Assembly: GCA_944378225.1 (NCBI GenBank)
Contig: CALWGE010000119.1
Coordinates: 1-41,238, forward strand
Length of the DNA: 41,238 nucleotides
Reading direction: 5' to 3'
Source: an uncultured Merdimonas sp.
GTDB lineage: Bacteria; Bacillota; Clostridia; Lachnospirales; Lachnospiraceae
Under the pieces are notes generated by a model that did not search any database, was not told the origin of the DNA, and worked only from the letters and a program-made list of their open reading frames with translations. Shown here one piece after another: positions 26,523 through 41,238 of the stretch (within the stretch, counting starts at the first letter, position 1; each line of letters begins with the position of its first letter). A program made the position numbers and the translations under genes.

Positions 26523-27473
26523 TTACAGGATGGCGCGGACGGCTTCCTCGGGCACCACGCTGGTGATGCCGCCGTGGGTCTGGGTGGAAAGGCTGGCGGC
26601 GCAGCAGGCAAACCGGGTGACGGCGGTCATTTCCTCTACCGTCAGGGCCTCCGGGGCTTTGCCCAGCCGCAGGAACTGGCTCATGGCGCTGCCGCCGAAG
26701 ATATCCCCGGCGCCGGTGGTATCCACCACATGGATGCCGCCGGAGGAAGCCACTTCGGCGCTGCCGTTGGCATTGGCCACATGGCAGCCCTTGGGACCCA
26801 AGGTCGCGTAGACCAGCTTGACGCCGTATTCGGTCAGCAGTTTTTGGGCGCCTTCCTCGGGGGAGAGGCCCCACAAAAACTCGATCTCCTCATCGCTGAT
26901 CTTGACGATATCCGCCTGGTGCAGGCCCCATTCCATCTGCTCTTTGGCAGCGTCCTCGCTGTCCCACAGGGGTTTACGCAGGTTGGGGTCGAAGCTGATG
27001 AGTTTTTCATGGGCTTTGGCGTAGGCCACCGCAGCCCGGGTGGCGGCGCGGGCAGGCTCGCCCGTCAGGCTCAACGTGCCGAAGTGGAACACCTTGCAGT
27101 CGTCCAGCAGGGCGGTGTCCACTTCCTCGCTGCGCAGGCAGGTATCGGCGCCGGGCTTGCGGGCAAAGCTGAAAGACCGGTTGCCGGTGGCGTCCAGCGT
27201 GACGAAAGCCAGCGTGGTGAACACCGCCGGGTCCTTTACAATGCCCTGGGTGGAAATGCCCAGGGTATCCAGGGTATGAACCAGCAGATGGCCGAAGGCG
27301 TCCTCCCCCACCTTGCCGATGAGGGCGGTGGTGCAGCCGTACTTTTGCAGCGCGGCCAAAAAGTTGCCCGGTGCCCCGCCGGGCTGGGCTTTCAGGGTGG
27401 GGTAGCCCGCTTCGTTAGTGGAAACGGGGGCAAAATCAATGAGCAGTTCGCCCAGTGCCACAACATCTATCAT
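26523..27473 (-). CDS. PfkB-family carbohydrate kinase, probable fructokinase
   Basis: 316 aa. Substrate-end motif GGAPGNFLAAL (about 32-42) and the catalytic anion hole DTTGAGDIFGG. N-terminal GELLIDFAP is typical of bacterial fructokinases. It phosphorylates fructose released by the GH32 enzyme, whose gene ends 21 bp upstream in the same operon. A role on fructose is inferred from that pairing. Confidence 0.9.
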   Translation of the reverse strand: MIDVVALGELLIDFAPVSTNEAGYPTLKAQPGGAPGNFLAALQKYGCTTALIGKVGEDAFGHLLVHTLDTLGISTQGIVKDPAVFTTLAFVTLDATGNRSFSFARKPGADTCLRSEEVDTALLDDCKVFHFGTLSLTGEPARAATRAAVAYAKAHEKLISFDPNLRKPLWDSEDAAKEQMEWGLHQADIVKISDEEIEFLWGLSPEEGAQKLLTEYGVKLVYATLGPKGCHVANANGSAEVASSGGIHVVDTTGAGDIFGGSAMSQFLRLGKAPEALTVEEMTAVTRFACCAASLSTQTHGGITSVVPEEAVRAIL

Positions 27474-27494
27474 AACGCACCTCCTGTGCGCTGC

Positions 27495-28964
27495 TTACAG
27501 CGCCAGATCATACAGCCGCAGGTCCATGCAGGCCCGGCCGCTGGCAAAGAACCGGATACCGTCGGCGTCGGCGGGGGCGTCGTAGAGGGTCATGCTGGCC
27601 ACCTGCTGCCCGTCCTGCAGGAAAAATTCTGCCGAGTACCGGTCCAGCACCATCCGCAGCCGCAGGGTGTCCCCCATCGGAGCCAGCAGCGGGGTCTCCC
27701 GCAGTTCCAGTGCGTCCCGGAACCCGCCGGCGTGGCGGCGGTCCAGGCGAAGCAGCCCGTCCTCCAGATCGAAACGCACCTCGGCCCAGCGGTCCCTGCC
27801 GCAGGCAATGCGCACCCCGAACCGCCGGGCCTGGCGCACATCCACCTGCAAGTCGCAGTCCAGCACCCGGCCCTGCACGCCTTCCAGCGTGAGCGGCCCG
27901 TTTTCCACTTCCACGCCGCGGTATTCCACCCGCAGCCGCCGGGCTGCATTCAGTTCCCGCACCGGCCGCTGGCAGAGGACCTCCCCCTGCCAGAACAGTT
28001 CCCGGGGCAGGCTCATCTGGCCGTACCAGGGGGCGTCTTGCGGCGGGTAGCAATGATCCCAGTTCTGCATCCAGCCAAGGAGCACCCGGCGCCCGTCGGG
28101 GGTTTCCAGCGTCTGGGGCGCATAGAAATCCAGGCCGCTGTCCAGGGGCTGGTCGGCCTGCCGCACAAAGGGGGCTCCGGGGCCGCCCCACCGGCCGATG
28201 AGGGCCGCCGTATCGTTGCCGCAGTGGTACCGGTCATCGGCAGCCTGGTGCACGAACTGGGGCGAAATGATGAGCACCGTCCGGCCTTCCAGGGTGAAAA
28301 GGCCGGGGCATTCCCACATACTGCCCAGGCTGCCGTCGTTTTCGGCCAGCACCTGCACAAACTCCCACCGGGAAGCGGCATCTTCGGGGCGGGGATTGCG
28401 GTAGAGCAGCAGCCGCCCATGGCCGTTGAACCCGCGGCCGCCCACCAGCATATACACCATGCCGTCCTGTGCAAAAAGGAAGGGGTCCCGGAAATCCTTG
28501 CGGGAAGCCCCCGCGGGCTGCTCATCACAGGTCAGCACCGGGGCGGAGGCTTTCTCATAAGTTTCGCCGTCGCCCAGGGCCAGGCACTGCTGCTGGATCT
28601 CGCCCTCCCCTTCCGGCATGACGCCGGTGTACAGGATCAGCTGCTTGCCCTTCCAGTCCATGGCGCCGCCGGAAAAACACCCGTTTTGGTCAAAGGGCGC
28701 GTCGGGGGCCAGGGCACAGGGGCGGTCCTGCCAGTGGAGGAAATCCTTTGTGACGGCGTGGCCCCAGTGCATGGGGCCCCAGTTGGTACCGTAGGGATGG
28801 TACTGGTAAAACAGGTGATACTGCCCGCCAAAGCAGGACCAGCCGTTGGGGTCGTTGCACCAGCCCACCGGGGGCACGGCGTGAAAGGCCGGGCGTTTTT
28901 CGGCGGGGGTACGGTGCTGTTCTTCATAGCGGCGGGCGCGGGCCAGAGTGTTGGTTTGTTCCAT
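27495..28964 (-). CDS. Glycoside hydrolase family 32 (beta-fructosidase/sucrose-6-phosphate hydrolase type)
   Basis: 489 aa, no signal peptide, so intracellular. Nucleophile motif WCNDPNGW with Asp38, the transition-state stabiliser FRDPF and acid/base Glu in WECPGLF are all present, followed by the beta-sandwich domain (about 340-489). It cleaves imported sucrose or short fructo-oligosaccharides. Uptake is by the ABC system (no PTS gene), so the substrate is probably not phosphorylated. Third function in the operon. Confidence 0.93.
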   Translation of the reverse strand: MEQTNTLARARRYEEQHRTPAEKRPAFHAVPPVGWCNDPNGWSCFGGQYHLFYQYHPYGTNWGPMHWGHAVTKDFLHWQDRPCALAPDAPFDQNGCFSGGAMDWKGKQLILYTGVMPEGEGEIQQQCLALGDGETYEKASAPVLTCDEQPAGASRKDFRDPFLFAQDGMVYMLVGGRGFNGHGRLLLYRNPRPEDAASRWEFVQVLAENDGSLGSMWECPGLFTLEGRTVLIISPQFVHQAADDRYHCGNDTAALIGRWGGPGAPFVRQADQPLDSGLDFYAPQTLETPDGRRVLLGWMQNWDHCYPPQDAPWYGQMSLPRELFWQGEVLCQRPVRELNAARRLRVEYRGVEVENGPLTLEGVQGRVLDCDLQVDVRQARRFGVRIACGRDRWAEVRFDLEDGLLRLDRRHAGGFRDALELRETPLLAPMGDTLRLRMVLDRYSAEFFLQDGQQVASMTLYDAPADADGIRFFASGRACMDLRLYDLAL

Positions 28965-28981
28965 GGTCGTTTCTCCGTAGC

Positions 28982-29017
28982 AAAAGCTGCCCGTCGTGCC
29001 AAAGCACGGCAGGCAGC
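28982..29017 (-). terminator. Intra-operon hairpin after the binding-protein gene
   Basis: GCTGCC and GCCGTGC pair across a TTTGG loop with one bulge, followed on the minus strand by TTTTG. Likely an attenuator or RNA stabiliser that favours the binding protein over GH32. Confidence 0.55.
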
Positions 29018-29024
29018 CATTTTT

Positions 29025-30632
29025 TTAGCCGTTCATGCTGGCAAAGTAGTTGTCCAGTCCGGTCTGTTTGAGCTGCAGCAGTTCCTGCAGGTTCATCTCG
29101 TTGAGTTTGGCGATATAGGCATCCCATTCTTCGGCCGCGCCGCCGTTCATGATCCAGGCCGCCTTCTGGCTTTCGGCATAGGGTTTCAGGTCGGTCTCGA
29201 TCTGGGTGATGCGGTCGGTGGTATCGATGTCAAAGAAGATGGGCGGATAGTTGTAATCACATTCCATGGCGGGGGCGAACTGGCTCTGGATCACATCCAG
29301 GCGCAACTTGGCATCGTCGGGCATGGTGGTGTAGGTACCGTAGTAGCTGTCCAGCACGGCCAGAGGGCCGCCCAGATTGGTCTTCATGCGCAGCTCGTAG
29401 GGGACCACGCCCTCGGGGATGGGCAGGTGCTGCAGGGTGCCGTCGTCCTTCATCTCAAAGATGTTGTCCTGGGTGGTATCGCCGTAGGTGCCCCAGTTGT
29501 CCTGCACCGACTGGATGGGATCATACAGCTGGTCGATCCACTTGGCGGTCAGGGCCGGGTTGGGGTTGGTGCCGGTGATGACACAGCGGCCGATCTCAAA
29601 GCCCATGGCGTTCTGGCGGGTGACGGCAGGCTGGCCGTCGGCGTTTTTCAGCGGGGGCAGGGCCACGTAGTTGTCGGGGGTGCCGGCGCTGGTGTTGTCC
29701 CAGGCCAGGAACAGACCGTACCGGTCGCTGGCGGCTTTGGAAACATAGGTGTTATAGTCCTGGGTAAAGACCTCGGGGTCGATGAGGCCCTCGGCGTAGA
29801 GGGTGTGCAGCCATTCCAGGCCGGGGACGATGCCTTCATCGGCCAGGGTGTAGACCACCTGCTTGTCGTTGTTCACCACATAGTGGTCGGCGTTGTCGCC
29901 GTAGCCGAAGGCGCTGAGCAGCACGCCCACGTCCTCATTGCCGCCGTTCATGACGAAGGACAGGGGCAGGCTGTCCGGGTGGGCCTGCTTGAAGGCCCGC
30001 AGCACTTCGGTCAGTTCCTCGGGGGTGGTGGGCATGGCCAGGCCAAGCTCATCCAGCCATGCCTTGTTGATCCAGGGAATACCGCCGATGGACTGGATGG
30101 CTTCCTTGTCGCTGCCCAGTTCCTCGATCCAGGGGAAGGAGTAGATGTGGCCGTCCGGCGCCGTGATGAGGGCGCGGTATTCGGGGTTTTCGTCCAGGAC
30201 CTTTTTCAGGTTGGGCATGTACTGGTCGATGAGTTCGTCCACCGCGATGATGGTGCCGTCCTTGGCGTAGCGCAGCAGGTCGTACTGGCTCATCTGGGCG
30301 TCAAAGACCATATCGGGCAGGTCCTTCTTGGCCAGGGCCAGCTGCTTTTTCTCGCCGAACTGGTCGTCCACGTAGACGGTCCAGTCGATGTGCACGTTGG
30401 TGGCTTCCTCCAGACGCTGGACGATGAGGCGGTCGTTGAGTTCCTGCCCGGCAAAGGACGGTTCGTGGGTCAGCGCCGTGAAGGTGACGGTCTCGGTCAG
30501 GGGGAAGGATGCCGAGGCGGCATCCACCGTGGCCGCGGCATTGTTCTGCTGGGAACCGCAGCCCGCCAGGCTGGTGAGCGCCAGCGCCGCGGCACCGGCC
30601 AGCGCCAGGGCACGTTTGGACATGGTTTTCAT
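29025..30632 (-). CDS. ABC sugar transporter extracellular binding lipoprotein
   Basis: 535 aa, size and sequence of the LplA/CUT1 large binding proteins. The lipobox LAGC places a lipidated Cys near residue 25. The mature part begins FPLTETVTFTALTHEPSFAG, with DLPDMVFDAQMSQYDLLRYAKDGTIIAVDELID typical of the family. It captures the oligosaccharide, probably a fructan, for the two permeases upstream. No ATPase gene is in the operon; a shared MsmX-like ATPase elsewhere is expected. Confidence 0.92.
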   Translation of the reverse strand: MKTMSKRALALAGAAALALTSLAGCGSQQNNAAATVDAASASFPLTETVTFTALTHEPSFAGQELNDRLIVQRLEEATNVHIDWTVYVDDQFGEKKQLALAKKDLPDMVFDAQMSQYDLLRYAKDGTIIAVDELIDQYMPNLKKVLDENPEYRALITAPDGHIYSFPWIEELGSDKEAIQSIGGIPWINKAWLDELGLAMPTTPEELTEVLRAFKQAHPDSLPLSFVMNGGNEDVGVLLSAFGYGDNADHYVVNNDKQVVYTLADEGIVPGLEWLHTLYAEGLIDPEVFTQDYNTYVSKAASDRYGLFLAWDNTSAGTPDNYVALPPLKNADGQPAVTRQNAMGFEIGRCVITGTNPNPALTAKWIDQLYDPIQSVQDNWGTYGDTTQDNIFEMKDDGTLQHLPIPEGVVPYELRMKTNLGGPLAVLDSYYGTYTTMPDDAKLRLDVIQSQFAPAMECDYNYPPIFFDIDTTDRITQIETDLKPYAESQKAAWIMNGGAAEEWDAYIAKLNEMNLQELLQLKQTGLDNYFASMNG

Positions 30633-30693
30633 CTTGTTTTCTCCTTTTCTTGATGGTTGTATGGTGAATTTTTTAAGTAGCGGAAAGTTTTCC

Positions 30694-30903
30694 CTCTTGC
30701 GGTGCCCGAATCGTGCGGCGCGCCTTGGGGCGGCGCTTGCACTCTTCGACCGCTGCGCCTAAAATTCCTCCCTGTTTCCGCCGCAGGCGGCATTGGGATA
30801 AGGAACTCTCTTGCGGTCCCCGAATCGTGCGGCGCGCCTTGGGGCGGCGCTTGCACTCTTCGACCGCTGCGCCTAACATTTTCCCTGCATCCGCCGCAGG
30901 CGG
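30694..30903. repeat. Two near-identical 97-bp direct repeats between permease and binding-protein genes
   Basis: Copy 1 is 30694-30790 and copy 2 is 30808-30903, offset 114 bp. Both run from CTCTTGCGGTNCCCGAATCG through GCGGCGCGCCTTGGGGCGG and CACTCTTCGACCGCTGCGCC to a hairpin CCGCCGCAGGCGG. The first 70 bases differ at only one place; the segment before the hairpin has diverged. In copy 2 the flanks CTAACATTTTCCC and GGGAAAATGTTAG make a further stem that includes the permease stop codon. Confidence 0.85.
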
Positions 30904-30914
30904 CGGGGAAAATG

Positions 30915-31805
30915 TTAGCCCTTTACGGATCCCAGCATGACGCCCTTCTCGAAATACTTCTGGAAGAAGGGATACATCACCAGCAGCGGCAGGCTGGAAA
31001 CCACGATGGTGGAGTATTTCAGCTGCTCGGCGATCTTGGCCATCATGGCGGCGTTCTGGGCGTCGGCCACCATGCCGGGGCGCGGGGTGTTCTGCACCAG
31101 GATGGACCGGATGACCAGCTGCAGCGGCTGGAGCGACTGATCCTCCAGGTAGATCATGGCGTCGAAGTAGCTGTTCCACATGCCCACGAACTGGTAGAGC
31201 ACCAGCACCGCGATGATGGGCTTGCAGACGGGGATCAGGATGCGGAAGAAGTATTGCAGTTCCGAAGCGCCGTCCAGGGCGGCGGCCTCGTGCAGTTCCA
31301 GGGGGATGGACTTATAATAAGTACGGGCCAGAATGATGTTCCACACATTCACCGCGCCGGGCAGGATCAGCGCCAGCGGGCTGTTGATGAGGTTGAGGTT
31401 GGACACCAGCAAGTAGGTGGGCATCAGGCCGCCGCCAAAGAACATGGTGATGAGGAAAAAGGTGTTGATGGCCTTGCGCCCCACAAACTGGGGCAGGCTC
31501 AGGGGATAGGCCGCCAGCAGGCAGATGATGGTGGAAAACACCGCGAAGGTGGTGGAGTACAGGAAGGAATTGAGGAAGCCCCGGCCGATCATATCGTCCT
31601 GAAAGACACGGCGGTAGCCTTCCAGGGTCCAGTCCTCGGGCAGAAAGCTGATGCCCTGGTTGGTGAGCACCACCGGGTCGATGAAGGAGGCCAACACCAC
31701 ATAAATCAGCGGGATCAGCACCGCCAGCGAGAACAGCCCCAGCAGGGCATACCCGCACCAGAGGACGACTTTATCCTTGCGGGTGTAAAACTGTCTGGAT
31801 TCCAT
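30915..31805 (-). CDS. Carbohydrate ABC transporter permease (MalG/CUT1 type)
   Basis: 296 aa, six membrane helices. The conserved EAA loop is ELHEAAALDGASELQYFFRILIPVCKP. Together with the next permease it forms the membrane channel for the binding lipoprotein. It starts 18 bp after the preceding permease gene's stop. Confidence 0.95.
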   Translation of the reverse strand: MESRQFYTRKDKVVLWCGYALLGLFSLAVLIPLIYVVLASFIDPVVLTNQGISFLPEDWTLEGYRRVFQDDMIGRGFLNSFLYSTTFAVFSTIICLLAAYPLSLPQFVGRKAINTFFLITMFFGGGLMPTYLLVSNLNLINSPLALILPGAVNVWNIILARTYYKSIPLELHEAAALDGASELQYFFRILIPVCKPIIAVLVLYQFVGMWNSYFDAMIYLEDQSLQPLQLVIRSILVQNTPRPGMVADAQNAAMMAKIAEQLKYSTIVVSSLPLLVMYPFFQKYFEKGVMLGSVKG

Positions 31806-31822
31806 GGTTTTCGCTCCTTTCG

Positions 31823-32749
31823 TTACAGGCCCTCGCCGTCGTTGAGCTTGCTGACGATGGCATTGACCGTCAGCAGCAGCACCACGTTGATCACCGCGTT
31901 GAACAGGCCCACCGCCGTGGAGTACCCGTAGTCGCCGATTTCCAGGCCCAGGCGGTACACATAGGTGGGGATGATCTCGGACGCGGCACGGTTCAGGTCG
32001 GTCTGCAGGGCCAGGGCCTTTTCAAAGCCGATGTTCATGATCTGCCCGGCCGAGAGGATGAACTGGATGACCATGATGGGTTTGAGGGTGGGCAGGTCCA
32101 CATGGCGGATCTGCTGCAAAAGACTGGCGCCGTCGATGTTGCAGGCATCCACCAGGTCACCGCTGACGCCGGACAGCGCCGCCGTGTAGATGATGGAAGC
32201 CCAGCCTGCCCCCTGCCAGATACCGCTGATGATGTAGATGGGGCGGAAGGCGTTGGGATCGGTCATCAGGTTGGACTGGGTGCCCAGCGCCGCATTGATG
32301 GGCCCCACCGGGGAAAGAAAGGCGATGATCATACCGGCCAGTACGATGACCGAGATGAAGTTGGGGGCGTAGATCAGCAGCTGGATCTTTTTGCGGATGC
32401 CCAACCGCCGCACACGGGAGAGCAGGATTGCCAGAATGATGGGCGGGAAGAATCCCCACAGCAGGCCGTAGACACTGAGTTTGAGGGTGTTGGCCATCAG
32501 GCGGGGGAACTCGGTGGAGGAGAGGAACCGCTGGAAGTTTTCGAACCAGATCCACTCACTGCCGAAGATGCCCAGGCGGTTGTTGTAATCCTCAAAGGCA
32601 ATGGCCAGGCCGCCCATGGGGATGTATTTGAAGATAAAGGTAAGCAATACGGCGGGCAGCGCAAAGAATACATAGAGCTGCCAGTTGTTTTTGATGTAGA
32701 CCAGCTTTTTGTGGCGGGTCTCGGCATCCGGGAGTTTGGGTAGGCTCAT
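31823..32749 (-). CDS. Carbohydrate ABC transporter permease (LplB/CUT1 type)
   Basis: 308 aa, first gene of the fructan operon. The start MSLPKLPDAE at 32749 follows GGAGATGAGATC. Six helices, the EAA loop region VDACNIDGASLLQQIRHVDLPTLKPI, and the YIPMGGLAIAFEDYN opening typical of LplB-type permeases. Confidence 0.95.
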   Translation of the reverse strand: MSLPKLPDAETRHKKLVYIKNNWQLYVFFALPAVLLTFIFKYIPMGGLAIAFEDYNNRLGIFGSEWIWFENFQRFLSSTEFPRLMANTLKLSVYGLLWGFFPPIILAILLSRVRRLGIRKKIQLLIYAPNFISVIVLAGMIIAFLSPVGPINAALGTQSNLMTDPNAFRPIYIISGIWQGAGWASIIYTAALSGVSGDLVDACNIDGASLLQQIRHVDLPTLKPIMVIQFILSAGQIMNIGFEKALALQTDLNRAASEIIPTYVYRLGLEIGDYGYSTAVGLFNAVINVVLLLTVNAIVSKLNDGEGL

Positions 32750-32767
32750 GATCTCATCTCCTAGTTT

Positions 32768-32910
32768 ACATTTGCACACCAGATATTTACGTTTTGTAAC
32801 TTTCTGTGTTTACTATACGCCAACTTTTCTCCCTTGTCAATGGCTTTTTCCCCTTTGCTCCGGGATTTGTAGGCTTATACAATGGGGCTTCCACCAGGTT
32901 GTGCAAATGT
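32768..32910. promoter_or_regulatory. Divergent control region: operon promoter with inverted operator pair
   Basis: The leftward operon has a near-perfect promoter on the minus strand: TTGACA (32835-32840), 17 bp, TATAGT (32812-32817). ACATTTGCACA (32768-32778) and its exact inverse TGTGCAAATGT (32900-32910) flank it, 132 bp apart. One lies in the 5-prime leader and one upstream, suitable for DNA looping by the tetrameric LacI protein encoded next door. Direct proof of binding is absent. Confidence 0.65.
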
Positions 32911-32940
32911 GAAAATCTGATTTTACAAAAGTTTACACTA

Positions 32941-32968
32941 TTGCACTTTTGCCGCTTTGCTGTATAAT
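32941..32968 (+). promoter_or_regulatory. Promoter of the fructan-operon LacI gene
   Basis: TTGCAC (32941-32946), a 16-bp spacer and TATAAT (32963-32968) lie 34 bp before the LacI start. A TTTTACAAAAGTTTACA stretch just upstream may be an extra operator. Confidence 0.65.
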
Positions 32969-33001
32969 AAAGAAAAACCCTTTACGAGGAGTGACCTACC
33001 G

Positions 33002-34039
33002 ATGGCCGCCAAAAAAATCACCATGCAGGACATCGCCGATGCCTGCGGTCTTTCCCGCAATACGGTGTCCAAGGTATTCAACGGCCGGGGCAGCGTGCCC
33101 GAAGCCACCCGCCAGCAAGTGCTGGAAAAAGCCCGCCAGATGGGCTACCGCCAGCTGCCCGCCGCAGAGGACCGGCCCGCCGTCCATGGCCGCAGCATTG
33201 CGCTGCTGACCCTGTGCATGCCGGGGCGCAACCACTACGGTTCCAACTTTATTTCCAGCTTTGCCAACCGCATGAGCCGGGCGGGCTATACCCTGATGAT
33301 CTACGAGATCCAGCCCGACGAACACCGGGACTGCCGCCTGCCCGCCAACTTTGTGCTGGAAAACACCGCCGGTATCCTTTGCATCGAGATGTTCGACCGG
33401 CGCTACACCGATTTTATCTGCCGGCTGGGGCTGCCGGTGATCTTCTCGGACACCTACGCCCGGGCGGATTTTTCCGCCATGGCCGGGGATTTCATCTCGA
33501 TGGAAAACACCACCAGCTCCATGGCTGTGACCAGCCGCCTGATCGAACGGGGCGCCCGCAAGCTGGGCTTTGTGGGGGACCACACCCACTGCAACAGTTT
33601 TTATGAGCGGTTCAACGGGTTCCGCACGGCCGTGGCCCGGGGCGGGCTGACCCTGGACCCCAATCTTTGCATTGTGGAGCCCAACAGCGCCCCCTACGGG
33701 GAGGCCGCCTGGCTGGTGGAACGGCTGCGGGCCATGCCCTGCCTGCCGGACGCTTTTGTCTGCGCCAACGACTACCTGGCCGTCCACCTGATGAAAGCCC
33801 TGAAATGCCTGGACCTGCGCATCCCCGAGGATGTGATGGTGGCGGGCTTTGACGATTCCCCCGAGGCCACCGTGGCCGAACCGCCCCTTTCCACCGTGCG
33901 CATCCCCAGCGGCGAGATGGGCTTTATCGCGGCAGGCATCTTGCTGGACCGCATCCAGCGCCCCACCCTGCCCTACCGCTGCTGCTACGTCCAGACCACG
34001 CCCGTCTGGCGGGAGAGTAGCCGCAGCCCAGTGAAATAA
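33002..34039 (+). CDS. LacI-family regulator of the fructan/sucrose operon
   Basis: 345 aa. The start follows GAGGAG. The HTH is ITMQDIADACGLSRNTVSKV (residues 6-25), then the sensor domain (GRSIALLTLCMPGR, the DAFVCANDYLAVHLMKAL and VAGFDDSPEA segments of the type I fold). Divergent from and adjacent to the ABC/GH32/fructokinase operon, whose repression it most likely controls. Confidence 0.93.
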   Translation: MAAKKITMQDIADACGLSRNTVSKVFNGRGSVPEATRQQVLEKARQMGYRQLPAAEDRPAVHGRSIALLTLCMPGRNHYGSNFISSFANRMSRAGYTLMIYEIQPDEHRDCRLPANFVLENTAGILCIEMFDRRYTDFICRLGLPVIFSDTYARADFSAMAGDFISMENTTSSMAVTSRLIERGARKLGFVGDHTHCNSFYERFNGFRTAVARGGLTLDPNLCIVEPNSAPYGEAAWLVERLRAMPCLPDAFVCANDYLAVHLMKALKCLDLRIPEDVMVAGFDDSPEATVAEPPLSTVRIPSGEMGFIAAGILLDRIQRPTLPYRCCYVQTTPVWRESSRSPVK

Positions 34040-34092: not shown

Positions 34093-34402
34093 TTTACAAA
34101 ATCGCTGTGTTCACAAAGTACGCCCGGTTAGAGCGGATCTGTTTGCTATTTTTCGCGCCGCCAGCCGGATGCCTTTCCCTCACCACTTCAGATACGCTCC
34201 CTGCATGGGGCTGGCGGCGGCACAGCACAAAACGCCTATGGTTTGTGCGGCTTCCTTGTGCGCAAAACAGTCAAATTTCCTATATAGGTTTTTTGCATTG
34301 TTTTTGCGCCGCCCTGCATGCTACAATCAAAACCAAAAAGGGGGTCCCTGCGCGCCCGTGTGCGCAGAGGGCTGATCCTGACACTGTATAGGAGGAATCG
34401 CC
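34093..34402 (+). promoter_or_regulatory. 310-bp gene-free leader with a candidate promoter
   Basis: TTGTTT (34298-34303), 18 bp and TACAAT (34322-34327) would drive the truncated dehydrogenase at 34403. I see no gene or RNA in the remainder. Confidence 0.4.
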
Positions 34403-34579
34403 GTGAAACTTCGACTGGGGATCATCGGGGCGGGAAACATCGCCACTTCCCACATTCAAAACGTGCTGGACGGGAAATGTTATTTCCCCCGATGGTTCAT
34501 GAATGCTTTCACTGCTTTGGAGATGAACTTCGTCAAAGAGAACTCCGAAAAAGTCATATGGCTTACTTTTTGTCGATGA
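34403..34579 (+). pseudogene. Truncated Gfo/Idh/MocA-family dehydrogenase (N-terminal 24 codons only)
   Basis: GTG at 34403 follows TATAGGAGG, a good ribosome site. The first 24 codons read VKLRLGIIGAGNIATSHIQN and on, the Rossmann opening (GxGxxA) of Gfo/Idh/MocA oxidoreductases. At about 34475 the high-GC gene ends abruptly in AT-rich DNA; the frame then runs through unrelated sequence to TGA at 34577. A palindrome GGGAAAT-gtt-ATTTCCC (34472-34488) marks the junction. The rest of the gene is not in the window. Confidence 0.8.
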
Positions 34580-35499
34580 CCGTTATAACATTACTTGGAT
34601 TCTCTGGAGATTCCTATAATACACTACTGGATTCCTTCGCCAAATTTCTATGTATAAATACTTCAGATCGCAGTGAGCCATATTTATCAGAAACCATTAC
34701 GCATCTGGAAAAAAGGATTTATAGCCTTTTCTCTGAGAAAGAGGCTTTGGATGATCTTTTTACAAAGACAAACAACACAGCTTATTGCCTCTATACTAGT
34801 GCCACCGCATCTAAGTTTCATAACATTCTATGTAATTTTTATGGCAACAATGAAAGCACAACTTGCATGATCACCGTTATTAATGCTTGTAAATACTATT
34901 TCAAGGAATGTTATGCCGATGCCATGACAATTGCCTTACTAGGGTTAACGCCATTCGAATATTTAAGTCTATTGAATGATGAATTGAAATTTTTAGACCA
35001 TCCGGAATTTTACGGAGATGAAGTAGAAGAATCCGTTCAACTTGCACAACGGGTAGCAATCGTTTTTACAGCATGTAGTGAGTCCAACGTGTTTACAACG
35101 GGAGCGCATGCAAATAGTCACGACATTATCAATTCCATTAATTTATTAAAGTCCAGACACCCCTTAAAAAGTGACGCATTCTTTGAGTTCTTAACAAAAT
35201 ACTATAATGCCTTAGCTTTAGAAGAAGTTTCAATTTCTTTCGGTGCAAGTTTAAAATCTGCTTTTCCTCCAGCGGCATTACGATATGTTGTTGACTATCT
35301 TAAGGCAACGATCTGCAGTCTTTATAAAAATAGTCTTACTAAAGCACCCTATTCAATAAACGATTTGCGAAATGATTTCAATGATATCATTCGTAATGGA
35401 AATATGTTTGGTCGTCGATTTTATCAATTAATTTATGATCAGCATGAAGAAATCCGAGCCTATATCAATCAAAATAAGGATCTAGCGTCTTCTTATTAA
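34477..35499 (+). CDS. AT-rich unknown protein inserted after the truncated dehydrogenase
   Basis: About 340 aa from ATG 34477, or 335 from ATG 34492; neither start has a clear ribosome site, so the native 5-prime end may be lost. The base composition (AT-rich third positions) contrasts sharply with all surrounding genes, showing recent acquisition. The protein is soluble and mostly helical-looking (ITHLEKRIYSLFSEKEALDD, AVRYVVDYL-like stretches). I recognise no family or catalytic motif. It ends 22 bp before the tRNA terminator hairpin. Confidence 0.6.
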   Translation: MLFPPMVHECFHCFGDELRQRELRKSHMAYFLSMTVITLLGFSGDSYNTLLDSFAKFLCINTSDRSEPYLSETITHLEKRIYSLFSEKEALDDLFTKTNNTAYCLYTSATASKFHNILCNFYGNNESTTCMITVINACKYYFKECYADAMTIALLGLTPFEYLSLLNDELKFLDHPEFYGDEVEESVQLAQRVAIVFTACSESNVFTTGAHANSHDIINSINLLKSRHPLKSDAFFEFLTKYYNALALEEVSISFGASLKSAFPPAALRYVVDYLKATICSLYKNSLTKAPYSINDLRNDFNDIIRNGNMFGRRFYQLIYDQHEEIRAYINQNKDLASSY

Positions 35500-35512: not shown

Positions 35513-35561
35513 TAAAAAACAAATCCGAACGCACCTTCATAAAGAAGTACGTTCGGATTTA
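35513..35561 (-). terminator. Terminator of the former tRNA-Arg gene
   Basis: AAATCCGAACG and CGTTCGGATTT with an extended imperfect inner stem. On the minus strand it is followed by TTTGTTTTTT, so it ends transcripts coming through the tRNA. Confidence 0.8.
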
Positions 35562-35568
35562 TTTGGTA

Positions 35569-35613
35569 TGGTGCGCCCGACTGGATTCGAACCAGCGGCC
35601 TTCCGGGTCGGAG
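35569..35613 (-). tRNA. tRNA-Arg(CCG), 3-prime half only (attachment site)
   Basis: On the minus strand the sequence gives, in order: anticodon loop CTCCGAC (anticodon CCG, 35607-35613), 3-prime anticodon strand CCGGA, a five-base variable region, T stem GCTGG, T loop TTCGAAT, CCAGT, acceptor strand CGGGCGC, discriminator A and encoded CCA (35569-35571). The expected 5-prime partner (TCCGG before the loop) is missing; instead comes foreign sequence. So only positions about 32-76 remain here, the usual footprint left by integration into a tRNA anticodon loop. An intact copy should lie beyond the right edge. Confidence 0.8.
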
Positions 35614-35772
35614 AACTGTGGCATCCGGCAAATAACAATGATACAGCGCGGGAATTTGTGCGGGTTGCACAACTTCCCGCGCTGGTTTGCGTGTGGAATA
35701 AACAATGCTGGATCGTAAAATTCACTCATCAAAACAGTTGGAAAAAGAAAAGTGGTCAAATGGTGGTCAGCC
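35606..35772. repeat. Left islet-end repeat with hairpin (att-like)
   Basis: Begins with the 15-bp core GGTCGGAGAACTGTG (35606-35620). A long hairpin follows: CAGCGCGGGAA (35644-35654) with TTCCCGCGCTG (35674-35684), inner stem TTGTGC/GCACAA, five-base loop. The copy ends near GTGGTCAAATGGTGGTCA. It matches 41073-41238 along its length. The stretch 35773-35927 holds nothing I can identify. Confidence 0.75.
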
Positions 35773-35927
35773 AACCGTCACGCGTTGCAAGCTTACAGAC
35801 TCGCCTTAAGCGGTTGATTCAGAAAGGTGGCCACACAGTAAAATGCTTGGCTTGCGGGGGGGGATGACTTGCTCACTGGGCAGAGCAAAGGCTCCAACGT
35901 GGGTTTGAAAGTCACGGGAAATGGGGA

Positions 35928-36980
35928 TCAGGATTCTTCATTGTTGTGCCGCTCCGCTTCTTTCTCCAAGGTAAGGAAGCGGTCAAAGTCGCTTTCAAAC
36001 AGCCTGTCCTGCACGACTCGGTACTTCTCGAACTCGCTCTCCGCAAACGCCTTGGCGATTTCATGGGTCACGCGGCCGGTATCGTGGAGGATCTCGTGTT
36101 CATTGAACTCCAGAAAACGGTTGAGTCTTTGAGACCAATCCTGCATGGTCATGGGGATATGGCGGCTGGCCTGATATTCCGCGTAGTCCAAATACATGGT
36201 GACGATACGTTCCAGCGCCTGCAACTCCTCTTTGGAGAGGTAGTTTTTGGCAATGGACACATCATACTTCTGAATCTTCCCATCCGGATACTGCTCCCAG
36301 GAGGTCAGACCCATATGGGGTTTTTCTGCATTGGCCCGTTCCATGATCAGTTCCGCCGCTGTGTGGCGGTGGATGGCCCAATGCAGTTTGTTTTGTACCT
36401 CTGCGAAAAACAGGCGCGTGGTCTTAGCTGACTTGTCATAATCCAAGGCGGTGGCATAGATGTCTGTGATCTTCTGGTAGAACCTGCGCTCAGACATCCG
36501 AATCTCCCGGATCTGCTCCAGCAGGTGGTCGAAATATTCCCTGGTGAGAACACTGCCGCCGCTTTTCAGTCGGTCGCTGTCTATGGCCCAGCCCTGGATC
36601 GTATAGTCCTTGACAATCCCGTTGGCCCACTTGCGGAACTGGACCGCCCGGTCATTGTTGACTTTGAAGCCTACCGCGATGATGGCCTGCAGATTGTAGT
36701 GGTTTGTGTTGTACTGCTTTCCGTCTGAGGCAGTTATTAAGTATTTCTTAATAACCGCCTTCTTATCCAGTTCGCCATCTTCAAAAATGTTTTTTAGGTG
36801 CTGATTGATGGCCGAGACAGAGACATCATAAAGAGTGGCCATCATCTTCTGTGTCAACCAGATATTTTCGTCTTCATAGCGCATCTCTATGCTATCTGCG
36901 CCATCGCCGGTTGCAGCAACGAAGGTCAGGTATTCCGCCGCACTGGAGCGGATCGGATGCTTCGATTCATGGTTTTGCAT
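35928..36980 (-). CDS. RhuM-family protein
   Basis: 350 aa from ATG 36980. RhuM (virulence RhuM, first noted on a Salmonella island) signature segments are MRYEDENIWLTQKMMATLYDVSVSAINQHLKNIFEDGEL and VGFKVNNDRAVQFRKWANGIVKDYTIQGW near the N-terminal half. The C-terminal half has AEVQNKLHWAIHRHTAAELI, a Fic-like helix often present in the family. The biochemical role is not established; genes are common in restriction/defence islands. The start overlaps the DUF6429 gene by 14 bp. Confidence 0.88.
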   Translation of the reverse strand: MQNHESKHPIRSSAAEYLTFVAATGDGADSIEMRYEDENIWLTQKMMATLYDVSVSAINQHLKNIFEDGELDKKAVIKKYLITASDGKQYNTNHYNLQAIIAVGFKVNNDRAVQFRKWANGIVKDYTIQGWAIDSDRLKSGGSVLTREYFDHLLEQIREIRMSERRFYQKITDIYATALDYDKSAKTTRLFFAEVQNKLHWAIHRHTAAELIMERANAEKPHMGLTSWEQYPDGKIQKYDVSIAKNYLSKEELQALERIVTMYLDYAEYQASRHIPMTMQDWSQRLNRFLEFNEHEILHDTGRVTHEIAKAFAESEFEKYRVVQDRLFESDFDRFLTLEKEAERHNNEES

Positions 36981-37284
36981 TGTCGTACCTGCATTCTCCC
37001 AATTTGATGCCATACTGTGCCAACAGTTTTTTTGCCTCAGACTCACCCTCCGAAGTGATTTGAGCGGGCCGGGTACGTCCGCTGTCACAAATCAGCCCTT
37101 CCTCTACCAGGTCCTTCAGGAGGCGGAAGTCATACCCTTTCCAGCACCGGCGGACAAGGGGATAGCTCCCCAGTTCTTTCTTTTTTACTGCCCTGAGTCC
37201 CGGCGCATCATGATCTTCCCAGGAAGTCAGATACATCAGCATGAGGGTGAGCTCCCGAATCTGTTTTAATCGCTCATCTACCAA
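36967..37284 (-). CDS. DUF6429-like small protein, coupled to RhuM
   Basis: 105 aa from TTG 37284, the codon best placed after AAGGAG; ATG 37305 would add seven residues. Sequence LTLMLMYLTSWEDHDAPGL and CWKGYDFRLLKDLVEEGLI followed by an ITSEGESEAKKLL winged-helix ending matches DUF6429, a small protein commonly found alone. Its end overlaps the RhuM start by 14 bp, so the two are co-translated, perhaps as a regulatory pair. Confidence 0.7.
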   Translation of the reverse strand: MVDERLKQIRELTLMLMYLTSWEDHDAPGLRAVKKKELGSYPLVRRCWKGYDFRLLKDLVEEGLICDSGRTRPAQITSEGESEAKKLLAQYGIKLGECRYDNAKP

Positions 37285-37470
37285 CTTGTGCACTCCTTGT
37301 ACCATTGATATTGCAGTATCATGGAATAAGTATAAGGCAGTAATGTGGAAAATACAAGCATCAGAATCGGTTGCTAAGCAGGGGCGCGGCGGCTGGATTG
37401 AGAAACCGGACGTAGAGCTGCAAGGCAAATTGGCTGCCGGGTCCTACTGCTGGATCTGCTGCCGGAAAGC

Positions 37471-37582
37471 TCATAACAGGCAGGACTTGCCGCAGCAGCG
37501 GATGCCGGTGATGAGCTTGAGGTCTGGGGGGCTGCGATCCCAACAAGCGCTGGAGATACTGCGGGCGGTCAATCTGTTTCAT
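37471..37582 (-). pseudogene. AAA-family (AAA_14/DUF4143-type) ATPase fragment, frameshifted
   Basis: ATG 37582 reads MKQIDRPQYLQRLLG, the classical start of the AAA_14/DUF4143 ATPases. After a -1-type frame change the next block reads DLKLITGIRCCGKSCLL, the Walker A region (normally GIRRCGKSTLL), then TGA. A second stop follows soon after. Only about 37 codons remain of a gene that is usually near 400 codons. The rest of 37306-37696 shows nothing else. Confidence 0.65.
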
Positions 37583-37696
37583 AAGGTGGGCCTCCGATTT
37601 CAAAAGTGTAGAAATTGGGAAGTTTTGAAACGGAAGCCGGTATGGAATAAAACAGCAGAAAAAGCAAGAGAATTTTCTAACGCGCCGTATTGGCCA

Positions 37697-40600
37697 TCAT
37701 CCGCTTGGCATTATACCTCGCAAAAACTCCATCAACTCCGCCGCCACATCCGGCGCGTCCATCCGCAAGCAGCTCTCGCCGTCCGGCATCCGGCCCAATG
37801 GGTTGAGGCCGCCGTACCAAACGAGCCGCTGGTCGAGTATACAAAAGTTGGGCAGGCGGTCGGGGCAAAACATAACCGGGATGCCCGCCCGCTGCAAAGC
37901 GGCTGCGCTGGCGGTGATTTTGGGCTGAATGTCTGGCCGGAACTGCGCGGGCTCCGGCAGGTAAACCTGCACATCCCCGCCCTTGTGTTGCAAGCGCTGT
38001 AACAGGGGGAGCATGCGCTGTACAGATCGCGCCGACAGCGACGGAACACAGAGCAGTACCTCCCGGGTGGCTCCTTCCAAATCCGCGGCAAACCGCTGAG
38101 GAAACTGTTCACAGCTCACAAAAACAGCTGCTTCGCGTTGTGCAGTCTGCTCGCTCGATTCGGGCTTCTCAGCTGTGCCCCGCACCGTATACGCCAGCGC
38201 CGCATAGCTGCGCAGCCGCCTGCGGTACTGCTGTTCCAACATCGGGACGCGAAGATCCACATAATCGTACAGCAAAACTTCCCGCTTGCCGGGCGCGGCA
38301 CGGTGCAGGCGGCCGGTGTACTGGGTCAGCGTGCCTTTCCAAACGACAGGCATCGTTAGGAGCAGGGCATCCAGCCGGGGCAGATCAAAGCCTTCCCCGG
38401 CATATTTGCCGATGGCGACAACGGCCAGCGGCTGCCCGACGGGTACGGCGGCCAGCGCATCCAGCAGCGCGCGTTTCTCTTTGGCGGTTCCGCGGCCGGA
38501 GAGCAAAAACACATGCGGGCAGCAGGGCCGCAGCGCAGCAGCCAGTGTTTTGGCGTGATCCAGCCGCTCGGTCAGCAGCAACGGCGTGCGCCCCTGCGCC
38601 AGCAGGTCACAGGCGTCATGGACGATTCGGTCATTGCGCAGCATGTCCCGCGCCAGCGCCTCGCAGATTTTCCCGTAGGTCGCCTTTTCGGTGGTCAGCG
38701 GCAGCGCAAAGCGGGTAAAGCGCGGCACCACGACACGCGCAAAGCCCTGCCGCTCGGCCTGCTCTTTGGCGCTGACTTGGTAACGGATCGGCCCGCACTG
38801 CATCGTGATGATTGGCCCGTGCCCGTCGGCGCGCGCCGGGGTGGCAGTCAGGCCGTACACATACCGGGCGGGCACGGCTCGCAGCACCTGCTCGAACCCG
38901 GCGGCCGATACATGGTGGCATTCGTCCACAATGACCACCCCGTATTCCCGCACCCGCGGATCGATCTCGCCGCCGTGGACCAACGATTGCAGCATCGCTA
39001 TATCCACAAATCCCGCAGCTGTGTGTTTGCCGCCGCCGATCTGCCCGATCAGGCAGCGTTTGCGCTGCCGGCCTCGGCGCTTGGGCTGCGGCGGCAGCTG
39101 TTCGTCGATCTGCAAGAACTGTGAGAGCGCCGCCTGCCACTGGTTGAGCAATGCCTGCGTGTGGACCAAAATCAGCGTGTTGACACCGCGTTGTGCGATC
39201 AGCCAGGCCGCGACCACCGTCTTGCCGAAGGCTGTCGTAGCGCTGAGAACTCCATTACGGTGCGCCAGCAGAGCGTCCACCGCGGGCTGCTGGTCGGGGC
39301 GCAGCGTGCTGGTAAAGGCGATGTGCAACGGGCGGCCTAGGCAGGTTTCGTCTTGGATGGCGCAGGCAGCCCCGACACCTTCTAAAAGTGCGCAAAGAGG
39401 TTCTTCGCAGCCGCGTGGCAACACTAAATATCCATCTGTCTCCACCGCTGTCGAAATAATGCGCGGGACGTTGTGGGTGGAAAAGTGCATGGCCTGTTTT
39501 TTGTAAAAGTCAGGGTTGCGAAAGGCCGCCAACCGAATTAGCCGGTTGCGGGCCACCGGTGTCAGATGCTCCAGAAGAATATACAACCCGTTGGCGCGAA
39601 CGATGGGCAGCGGTAGTTGTTTGAAATCCTGGGCGGACAAGGCAGGTGAAGGTTGGGGCTTCCAGGGGGTGTGGGAGTTGGTCGCTGTCTGGGTGATATC
39701 TGCGCGTGAAGCGTGGGTGCCTGCCATTTCCGCCGGTTCGGTCAGTACCCCAAGCGGCGGATGGCCGGGGCTCAATGCTGCCAGCAAATCGTCGGCCTGG
39801 CCGGGCAGCAGCGTGCGCACAGTAGAAAGAAACGCCCACGGGTCCGGGTAGGGCGTGAGCGAATCGTTCAGAAATATACTGTTGCCCTGCCGTCGGGCCT
39901 GACCTTGCAACGGCAAGGCAATCAGGTTGCCGAACCCGCCCGCGGGCAGTGTGTCCTGGTTGGGAAACATCCGGTCGTAGGCGGTGAAGGAAATACCACC
40001 GCAAGTGTCCATAGCGGCAGTCAGCAGCGCATCGCCAAGCCGGCGCGCCTTAGCGCAGGGAATGGCCTCGGCAAAAAACAGCCAAACATGCGCGCCTTGA
40101 CCGGAGCGAGACCGCTCCAGTGCGAACGGGATACTGTGTGCGCGGCAGACGTCCGCGATGGCGCGAGCGCAGTCTTGCCAGTTGGCGTCGTCGAAGTCCA
40201 GCGCCAGCAGATAGCAGGTCTCGTCCGACAGCATCGGGTACAAGCCGACGACGTCGCGCCCCTGCGCGTCCCGCCCGGCCAGGTGACGGTAGATGGCTGC
40301 GTCGTCCAGCGGGCGCAGCACGCGGTTCGGACATTTTGCGCAGGGAACGCGCCCTTTTTCGCACAGGCCGGGCCGCCATTCATTCGCGCAAACGGGACTG
40401 TAACCGCTCTTCTGTGCCTTTTCGCTGTGCCAGCGCAGGGCGTAAACATCGGTGCGGCCGCGAAACAGGGAACGAAAGAGACGGATCTTTTCGGCGGGAG
40501 AACTGGTGCAGGCGACAGACAATGGGGCGGATTGGGCAGGCAGTATACTTTGACGGTTGTGAGAGGGTGTGACCGTATTGGGGGCGGGCGCGTCCAGTGT

Positions 40601-40771
40601 AGCCGCCGTGTTAGAGGGCATTTGTGCCGCAGAAAGAACGGTATCTCCAGCCTTGCCCTGCGCAGAACTGCTCAAACCAAACGCCGCCAGCTGTGCCCGC
40701 AATTCAGCATTTTCTTGTTCGAGCTCTTGTACTCTGCGCTGTAGGCGTCGGATCTCCAACTCTGCATCCAT
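37697..40771 (-). CDS. TOTE-type conflict protein: primase-polymerase, SF2 helicase and PLD-like module
   Basis: 1,024 aa. Start ATG 40771 after AGGGAGG. Residues 1-30 are a coiled coil. A zinc-binding element (Cys128, Cys137, Cys144, Cys147) lies before the archaeo-eukaryotic primase core, with LALDFDD (Asp192, Asp194) and SRSGQGAHVWLFF, then MFPNQDTLPAGGFGNLIALPLQ (268-289). The helicase has motif I SATTAFGKT (510-518), DECH (616-619), GLTATP and GEGFDLPRLD-QYTGRLHR. A C-terminal PLD-like segment reads NFCILDQRLVWYGGLNPLG, where the HxK of the motif appears to be LPN. TOTE systems are proposed to counter foreign nucleic acids; the exact role is not settled. Confidence 0.9.
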   Translation of the reverse strand: MDAELEIRRLQRRVQELEQENAELRAQLAAFGLSSSAQGKAGDTVLSAAQMPSNTAATLDAPAPNTVTPSHNRQSILPAQSAPLSVACTSSPAEKIRLFRSLFRGRTDVYALRWHSEKAQKSGYSPVCANEWRPGLCEKGRVPCAKCPNRVLRPLDDAAIYRHLAGRDAQGRDVVGLYPMLSDETCYLLALDFDDANWQDCARAIADVCRAHSIPFALERSRSGQGAHVWLFFAEAIPCAKARRLGDALLTAAMDTCGGISFTAYDRMFPNQDTLPAGGFGNLIALPLQGQARRQGNSIFLNDSLTPYPDPWAFLSTVRTLLPGQADDLLAALSPGHPPLGVLTEPAEMAGTHASRADITQTATNSHTPWKPQPSPALSAQDFKQLPLPIVRANGLYILLEHLTPVARNRLIRLAAFRNPDFYKKQAMHFSTHNVPRIISTAVETDGYLVLPRGCEEPLCALLEGVGAACAIQDETCLGRPLHIAFTSTLRPDQQPAVDALLAHRNGVLSATTAFGKTVVAAWLIAQRGVNTLILVHTQALLNQWQAALSQFLQIDEQLPPQPKRRGRQRKRCLIGQIGGGKHTAAGFVDIAMLQSLVHGGEIDPRVREYGVVIVDECHHVSAAGFEQVLRAVPARYVYGLTATPARADGHGPIITMQCGPIRYQVSAKEQAERQGFARVVVPRFTRFALPLTTEKATYGKICEALARDMLRNDRIVHDACDLLAQGRTPLLLTERLDHAKTLAAALRPCCPHVFLLSGRGTAKEKRALLDALAAVPVGQPLAVVAIGKYAGEGFDLPRLDALLLTMPVVWKGTLTQYTGRLHRAAPGKREVLLYDYVDLRVPMLEQQYRRRLRSYAALAYTVRGTAEKPESSEQTAQREAAVFVSCEQFPQRFAADLEGATREVLLCVPSLSARSVQRMLPLLQRLQHKGGDVQVYLPEPAQFRPDIQPKITASAAALQRAGIPVMFCPDRLPNFCILDQRLVWYGGLNPLGRMPDGESCLRMDAPDVAAELMEFLRGIMPSG

Positions 40772-40844
40772 ACAAACGACCTCCCTATCGCAAATGAGCA
40801 ATCAAATCATGTGAGGCAACGATTCGGGATTCCTTATTTCTTTT

Positions 40845-40873
40845 AGAATAGCACATGAATAAAAGGCAAGCAA
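40845..40873 (-). promoter_or_regulatory. Promoter of the TOTE gene
   Basis: On the minus strand TTGCTT (40868-40873), 17 bp and TATTCT (40845-40850), 75 bp before the start codon. The remainder of 40772-41072 is AT-rich and has no gene I can support. Confidence 0.55.
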
Positions 40874-41072
40874 GAATAGAAGGATATGCGTCGGCGGCAA
40901 TGTCAGAATTTACGGGAAAGAACCAAAAAGCACAGAGGTCGTTTATCAAGAGTGGTTTGGAATCGTGTAATATGATTGAAAAAAATAAATGAAATATCGA
41001 TATATATTTGGCTCGAAAGAATATGGTCACACCAAGCGCTTTAGGTAATAGCGTGGTTGGACGTAGTAGTCA

Positions 41073-41238
41073 GGTCGGAGAACTGTGACGCACAGGCAAA
41101 ATACAAAGATACAGCGCCGGAAATTGTGTGGTGTGCACAACTTCCGGCGCTGTTTGTGGTGGTTATAAAAGAATGTTGGGACGTAAAAAACGATATACGG
41201 AACCGGCCGGGAAGAAGGAGTGGTCAGATGGTGGTCAA
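41073..41238. repeat. Right islet-end repeat with covarying hairpin (runs to window edge)
   Basis: Core GGTCGGAGAACTGTG (41073-41087) and a hairpin CAGCGCCGGAA (41112-41122) with TTCCGGCGCTG (41142-41152). Compared with the left copy, one stem pair changed from G-C to C-G on both arms together. The end GTGGTCAGATGGTGGTCA also matches. The tRNA half is not repeated here. Confidence 0.75.

Follow-up and report, generated by a model that had tools for sequence, protein, structure and literature searches.

In the 41,238-nt contig CALWGE010000119.1, which was binned with an uncultured Merdimonas sp. and is called the window here, the stretch from 35607 to 41073 probably constitutes a 5.5-kb non-autonomous integrative unit within a tandem accretion array at a tRNA-Arg(CCG) gene. 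On the best reading of the maps, the integrase-less units of such an array would use the recombinases of a neighbor. Mobilization in trans, as suggested by a first-pass annotation of the window, is plausible; cis-mobilization or homologous exchange would give nearly the same map. The unit and its surroundings comprise the following features.

35517..35564, minus strand: inverted repeat resembling a terminator, immediately past the tRNA 3′ end
35569..35613, minus strand: 3′ half of tRNA-Arg(CCG), anticodon loop to CCA, loop CTCCGAC
35607..35613, plus strand: overlap GTCGGAG, identical with the 7-nt anticodon loop and forming the left junction, where identity to genome G281 starts (35607)
35614..35620, plus strand: AACTGTG, arm next to the overlap, conserved among the 21 aligned left ends
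35644..35684, plus strand: left-end hairpin of 11 + 6 pairs with a loop of 5 (folding and alignment)
35751..35769, plus strand: paired direct repeats AGTGGTCA-AAT-GGTGGTCA, at the same place in other left ends
35928..37088, minus strand: RhuM family gene (PF13310, E 8e-108; PADLOC candidate PDC-S05, E 1e-151)
36967..37428, minus strand: DUF6429 open reading frame (ORF) (PF20008, E 1e-17)
37697..40801, minus strand: AEP-TOTE primase and helicase, 1034 aa, open (PF22548, E 3e-92; ResIII; DEAD)
41057..41073, plus strand: satellite-type right end TTGGACGTAGTAGTCAG (10 copies among the examined arrays)
41074..41080, plus strand: overlap GTCGGAG between the window unit and the next unit (sequence match)
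41081..41238, plus strand: start of the following unit, truncated where the contig stops; its left end shows AACTGTG, a hairpin at 41112-41152, and repeats at 41219-41237

The 3′ half of tRNA-Arg(CCG) meets foreign DNA at the 7-nt anticodon loop, and the 15-bp core GGTCGGAGAACTGTG at 35606-35620 recurs at 41073-41087, a spacing of 5,467 bp, as the first-pass annotation had described. The make-up of the core required correction: it consists of one G, the 7-bp overlap GTCGGAG from the anticodon loop, and the element end AACTGTG, and GGTCGGAG is the only part of it common to the tRNA side. The assembly contained no third exact copy of GGTCGGAGAACTGTG in its 2.85 Mb, and one more when two mismatches were allowed (reversed control, 1 + 1). 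Starting at the core, the two repeats are similar over about 165 bp with 75% match (77% over 94 bp ungapped). No integrase lies between them, in agreement with the earlier claim: the three genes encode RhuM, DUF6429, and AEP-TOTE/helicase, tblastn with recombinase queries gave no match in the unit, and a domain search of the three genes gave no relaxase or conjugation gene. The RhuM ORF is 386 aa long, and its true start is probably further in. The unit thus has the features of a cis-mobilizable element (CIME), in that it lacks recombination and transfer genes and is flanked by sequences that resemble attachment (att) sites and presumably act as such. ARAGORN detected no intact tRNA in the window, none therefore adjoining the tRNA half on the left, and the sequence stops at 41238; the 5′ half must accordingly lie beyond the contig. 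Searched with a pattern for the 5′ half, the assembly gave a single match, three mismatches off, inside a tRNA-Arg(tct), and an Rfam scan of the window gave no family at threshold.

Relatives of the unit were found in other genomes. A pattern scan of genome_contigs gave two matches, one of which, the Gemmiger contig L064, is real; the Micrarchaeota match L063 has no similarity to the window beyond the pattern and was rejected. A covariance model of the left end, built from three copies, matched three places in the genome of L064, two of them on the other strand too, and one of the three (G061:C43, 36 bits) was rejected as an unrelated hairpin. The model gave 20 matches above 70 bits in eight of 396 genomes of the family, and among 394 genomes of the order the matches above 50 bits came again from G061 only; these sets sample the family and the order, and weak matches may have been missed under the stricter filters. 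Two to five strong ends, on one strand of one locus, were present in each of the genomes G281, G379, G335, and G212. The hairpin was not scattered without linkage, which would have spoken against the first-pass annotation: all 20 strong matches carry the core, a near copy, or, in one case at a contig start, a remnant of it. Among the family and order matches below 52 bits, four were inspected (L079, L080, L155, and L156; 50 to 36 bits) and rejected as hairpins with no core, no recombinase match, and no tRNA. A match to the end pattern in G016 lies within an apparent uvrB gene (by eye) and was regarded as chance. The weak matches, L009, and L063 were excluded from the counts given below. Two strict patterns and a recombinase search found no match in viral_contigs, and the phage and plasmid records (713 and 200 matched) contained no recombinase at 60% identity or more.

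Alignment of the left ends defined the anatomy of the arrays. A left end is composed of the overlap GTCGGAG, the arm AACTGTG, a hairpin, and paired GTGGTCA repeats, which resemble arm sites, and the junctions between two units and between unit and tRNA fall at the 7-nt anticodon loop. The sequence preceding the overlap in 21 aligned left ends is a tRNA 3′ half in 11, a satellite right end in nine, and another sequence in one (L064). Two of the 11 tRNA halves were judged by eye, a degenerate one in G171 and one assigned to tRNA-Arg(CCT) by its loop, CTCCTAA. The alignment excludes the left ends of G115:C22 and G188:C59, which are cut by contig ends, and three variants with other hairpins; one variant follows a satellite right end (G335, 117.4 kb), and the other two follow a tRNA 3′ half (G335, 34.0 kb; G188, 36.9 kb). 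Two kinds of right end were distinguished, a tRNA 3′ half and the conserved sequence GTAGTAGTCWG-GTCGGAG. In the examined arrays, the 10 satellite right ends (CGTAGTAGTC-GGTCGGAG) are identical except for one A/T position, and each of them abuts a left end and not a tRNA 5′ half. The window unit is of this satellite kind: its own right end is GTAGTAGTCAG, not a tRNA half, and does not restore the tRNA. The inverted repeat downstream of the tRNA 3′ end in the window was present at the same place in most of the other tRNA-type right ends inspected, and from the loop to CCA the window's tRNA half is identical to those of G188 and the intact G335 tRNA. A left end of a second type, GTCGGAGTTCCCAGACGG, was observed at L132:13840-14005 and L140:11690-11860; it combines the same repeat pair with a hairpin that looks like a terminator.

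The two kinds of right end differ in their association with recombinases. The recombinase-bearing units encode, near each other, two tyrosine recombinases with about 27% mutual identity, both matching PF00589. The pair is present in eight of the 10 units with a tRNA-type right end and in none of the 10 with a satellite right end (Fisher p 0.0007, with units that are not independent). Seven leftmost tRNA 3′ halves (the window, G061:C82, G281, G212, G335 at 130 kb, G171, and G188 at 36.9 kb) were not counted as unit right ends because the DNA beyond them may be chromosome, and two recombinase-bearing units (G188 and G115) were omitted as their right ends are off the contig. No recombinase match was obtained for the remaining two tRNA-type units, G335_A3 and G281_S0, the latter of which retains sequence from either side of the recombinase module. 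The first recombinase of G335_A2, one of the eight, is split over two frames, that of G115 is cut by a contig end, and that of G281 shares 64% identity with the G335 query. The first-pass annotation had anticipated tandem satellites without an integrase, with the intact tRNA and an integrase farther along. Both are borne out in other genomes, where tandem arrays hold the 10 units with the GTAGTAGTCWG right end and no recombinase match, and where four arrays were traceable up to an intact tRNA-Arg(CCG) and recombinases on the far side; the unit beside the intact tRNA carries the recombinases in all four.

We propose the following mechanism. The overlap would be the site on which the recombinase pair acts, flanked by core arms (AACTGTG and its inverted partner), and the GTGGTCA repeats would serve as arm sites. 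A recombinase-bearing unit would enter the tRNA gene and restore it with its own 3′ half, and the integrase-less units would use the pair of this helper to enter the junction between the displaced 3′ half and the left end, so that the tRNA stays unbroken. The hairpin would stop transcription between units, and the cargo (RhuM and TOTE in the window, Wadjet or sugar-use genes elsewhere) would thus move as a module. As a tentative extension, for which the case is rather less than even, the satellites may form a dedicated integrase-less family with 5-17 kb of interchangeable cargo that parasitizes the tyrosine-recombinase pair of tRNA-Arg, the occupied locus growing like a large-cassette integron. 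Since the satellite right end cannot rebuild the tRNA, the members of such a family would settle only at the spare junction that a helper supplies.

It is also possible, if somewhat doubtful, that the unit is an ordinary CIME, that is, a decayed recombinase-bearing island whose recombinases were deleted and whose ends were kept, and which moves in cis with its neighbors. Decay of this type occurs in these arrays, as G281_S0 retains both sides of the recombinase module together with a tRNA-type right end, and tandem CIMEs are described as common in streptococci and have been proposed in Dehalococcoides in the accessible parts of two reports (PMC7563491 and PMC3146451, respectively). Decay should, however, preserve the tRNA-type right end, whereas ten units, several with unrelated cargo, have another one, and none of the eight recombinase-bearing units with a visible right end has the satellite type.

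Several observations weigh against a non-autonomous unit mobilized by its neighbors. Because the contig stops short of any recombinase, it does not show the helper of the window copy. The 10 + 10 units compared above are not independent, three unit pairs being homologous, and the left end of satellite G379_S0 was not found. A scan of three helper units, which covered 29 non-recombinase proteins (16 from G281_A4, nine from G379_A4, and four from G212_A2) and omitted many ORFs, revealed no relaxase or conjugation gene. The movement of units by excision, circle, and transfer is predicted from sequence maps; the window unit and its neighbor may have moved jointly, and homologous recombination between arrays could likewise distribute units.

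Comparison of the same units in different genomes bears on the last point. The window unit is 99.5% identical over 4.85 kb to G281_S1, which stands behind a different tRNA half and is without about 611 bp of the TOTE gene. When the window is the query, the identity starts with the overlap, at base 35607; when G281 is the query, it extends 20 bp beyond this, through similar but non-identical tRNA halves, and then stops. At the other side, it crosses the right junction (98.9% for 38953-41238), and because it continues into the left end of the next unit, the two units may have traveled together. This continuation would also be expected if homologous recombination between arrays, via common ends or neighbors, rather than site-specific recombination, spreads the units. 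We regard that explanation as unlikely, because the high identity ends leftward at the tRNA half, and because G335_S1 and G379_S3 match along their full 13 kb (93.8%), yet have different neighbors on both flanks. Similarly, G281_S2 and G379_S1 are 92.7% identical over 10.2 kb with different neighbors. This sharing shows that the units behave as modules, whichever type of recombination moves them. A 12.7-kb cargo is common, in inverted orientation and with 95% identity, to G281_S3, which has a satellite end, and G335_A3, which has a tRNA-type end (L102, L109); neither has a recombinase match.

The sequences around the overlap provided insight into the exchange point. Where the CCG sites have GTCGGAG-AACTGTG, one G335 left end has TTAGGAG-AACTGTG. 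Because TTA-GGAG-AACTGTG joins an apparent tRNA-Arg(CCT) half, the exchange seems to occur within the loop, and the loop of the target seems to be kept. This satellite left end lies on G335:C55 near 130350 (L111:15344-15357), its tRNA being assigned by the loop, and a second isoacceptor, tRNA-Arg(CCT), may thus also be used as a target. L064 reads TACAGTT-GTCGGAG-AACTGTG, an inverted pair around 7 bp, which by analogy with known tyrosine integrases we infer to be the core site of the recombinases. At the tRNA end of the arrays, the tRNA 5′ half, including the loop, is duplicated at a distance of 203 bp in G281, G379, G212, and G061 and of 216 bp in G115, and G335 has three copies. Duplicates were thus found in six of the eight genomes searched, and the search gave no match in G188 and G171. 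In the four arrays read, the pieces of about 200 bp contain a GTGGTCA-like repeat pair and end in GTT-GTCGGAG. They resemble microCIMEs that would each bring a new 5′ half, and the working tRNA seems to be a mosaic of mobile pieces. Examples of duplicate tRNA-Arg 5′ halves are found at L131:1395-1847 and L122:19078-19340.

The first-pass annotation also proposed that the hairpin is under selection for its structure. Both copies in the window do fold far better than their shuffles (z −6.2 and −6.7), and the single stem pair that changed from G-C to C-G between them is real; one changed pair in two copies is not proof of selection. In the alignment of 21 left ends (20 distinct), 96.5% of the cells pair. 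The pairing percentage, the number of two-sided cells (seven), and the covariation score were above those of all 500 shuffles and all slid versions, and the number of pairs with a two-sided change (87 of 500) and that of pair types (121 of 500) were not; six of the seven two-sided cells are at one pair, and kinship among the sequences inflates the covariation scores. The hairpin is probably a terminator rather than a recombination signal, since similar hairpins occur without the core in two genomes (G069 and G086), and a terminator between units is its simplest reading. On the strand that carries the leftward cargo genes, the second copy in the window has a terminator-like score; terminator-like sites in the region are no commoner than in shuffles (7 vs 6.6). 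That it is long, paired, and has some compensatory change would also suit a recombination substrate folded from single-stranded DNA, like the attC of integrons. This is very improbable, as the exchange takes place in the tRNA loop about 30 bp from the hairpin, the hairpins lacking the core and the terminator-like second copy do not fit it, and the three variant left ends (G335, 34.0 and 117.4 kb; G188, 36.9 kb) have different hairpins at the same place, judged by eye. The recombinases match general phage-integrase models.

The contig probably has another origin than its label states. The window is the whole of contig C119 in an assembly of 138 contigs, and the GC content of positions 1-34000 is 62.4%, vs 41-51% at the other tRNA-bearing loci fetched from the assembly (>1.4 kb), with the exception of C120 at 59%. 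Two blocks in 26574-34013 are 86 and 90% identical to G379, and blocks in 27495-34024 are 87 and 89% identical to G281; G379 and G281 are genomes of the family of Candidatus Gemmiger faecigallinarum. In these genomes, the matching flank stretch lies to the left of the first array junction found, by about 24 kb (G379) and 42 kb (G281). The similarity of the window to this family covers blocks over about 7.3 kb. The GC content and this similarity suggest that the contig is probably misbinned in its metagenome-assembled genome (MAG); searches of its own assembly therefore say nothing about its host. An intact tRNA-Arg(CCG) on contig C7 (G000) was considered for the host and set aside: because of the difference in GC content, it is uninformative on the window locus and probably belongs to another organism. 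The same misfit in GC could be taken to mean that the tRNA junction is a chimera created in the assembly of the MAG, which is hardly credible given that this type of junction recurs in several other assemblies and that the window unit is present in the 2.99-Mb single contig of G281. Directly to the left of the tRNA half, at 34318-35499, there is a 393-aa ORF with 38% GC and no match in Pfam or NCBIfam, which is perhaps part of a further unit.

The cargo of the satellites is diverse. In addition to RhuM/TOTE in the window unit, it includes a Schlafen/AlbA-type gene with JetB, C, and D of Wadjet II; kinase/VWA/PP2C with SNF2 and radical-SAM; glycosyl hydrolase 3 and ABC permease; genes for a dynamin-like GTPase, a GHH-nuclease-type protein, a HipA-like protein, and a glycosyltransferase; and peptidase M16, serine dehydratase, and ABC transporter. 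The recombinase-bearing units carry type I restriction-modification, GmrSD, C5 methylase, Vsr, Z1, and DUF4420, as well as AIPR abortive infection, aminotransferases, and PTS permease. The 10 satellites and two further units with no recombinase match, which carry defense systems (Wadjet II, RhuM/TOTE) and sugar-use genes, are liable to be merged or overlooked, and the same units were found in genomes of different species. The exact unit ends can now be used as queries for further units. If the right-end rule is true, it would offer a simple test of integrase-less DNA that uses a tRNA gene and leaves it undestroyed by landing only in an occupied site.

Some known systems share parts of this organization. 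Staphylococcal cassette chromosome (SCC) elements resemble the arrays in their recombinase pair, tandem composite islands, recombinase-less members, and mixed cargo, and differ in that their recombinases are serine recombinases and their target is a protein gene. The arrays appear to work like the accretion of CIMEs and of the Dehalococcoides ssrA islands, although their common right end is unexplained by simple decay. In the accessible text of PMC7563491 and PMC5704250, CIMEs, related to streptococcal integrative and conjugative elements (ICEs) and integrative and mobilizable elements (IMEs), are integrase-less, lie between att sites, and stand in tandem with integrase-bearing elements at one gene; they are defined there as decayed ICEs or IMEs, whereas the integrase-less units here have a common right end of their own. 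In contrast to ICEs and IMEs, the helper units show no conjugation genes among the scanned proteins. The microCIMEs, 130-220 bp long and gene-less according to the available part of PMC7563491, are like the pieces of about 200 bp beside the tRNA in these arrays. The ssrA islands, as far as the consulted portion of PMC3146451 describes them, form tandem arrays at one RNA gene, as here, each marked by a gene-end repeat, and 15 of them are without an integration module; their recombinases are serine recombinases that target the T-loop of tmRNA, and that portion mentions no second kind of right end. The anticodon-loop (subsite A) islands of Islander have a tyrosine integrase, an anticodon-loop crossover, and a displaced 3′ fragment, three traits common to the arrays; the window locus itself shows the displaced tRNA 3′ half at one end and the crossover in the anticodon loop. 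By the accessible description (PMC4383910), Islander requires an integrase in every member before it resolves a tandem array, and it would presumably overlook the present arrays or merge their units. The Tyr-duo IMEs MTnPi1-3 of Prevotella, in the part of PMC5704250 that covers them, encode two distantly related tyrosine recombinases in tandem genes. This trait is present in eight of the 10 tRNA-type units and not in the window unit; the MTnPi elements have low site specificity and scattered copies, in contrast to the one tRNA locus here. Like the first-pass annotation, which knew of no named element with this end, our literature search found no description of it (most subscription journals and bioRxiv were outside its coverage). 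A recombinase pair, the first member 48% identical, was also found together with a tRNA-Arg(CCG) 3′ half in MT836674.1, a human fecal sequence from a phage collection; this record (L148:1-9188), labeled Bacteriophage, is perhaps an integrative island rather than a phage.

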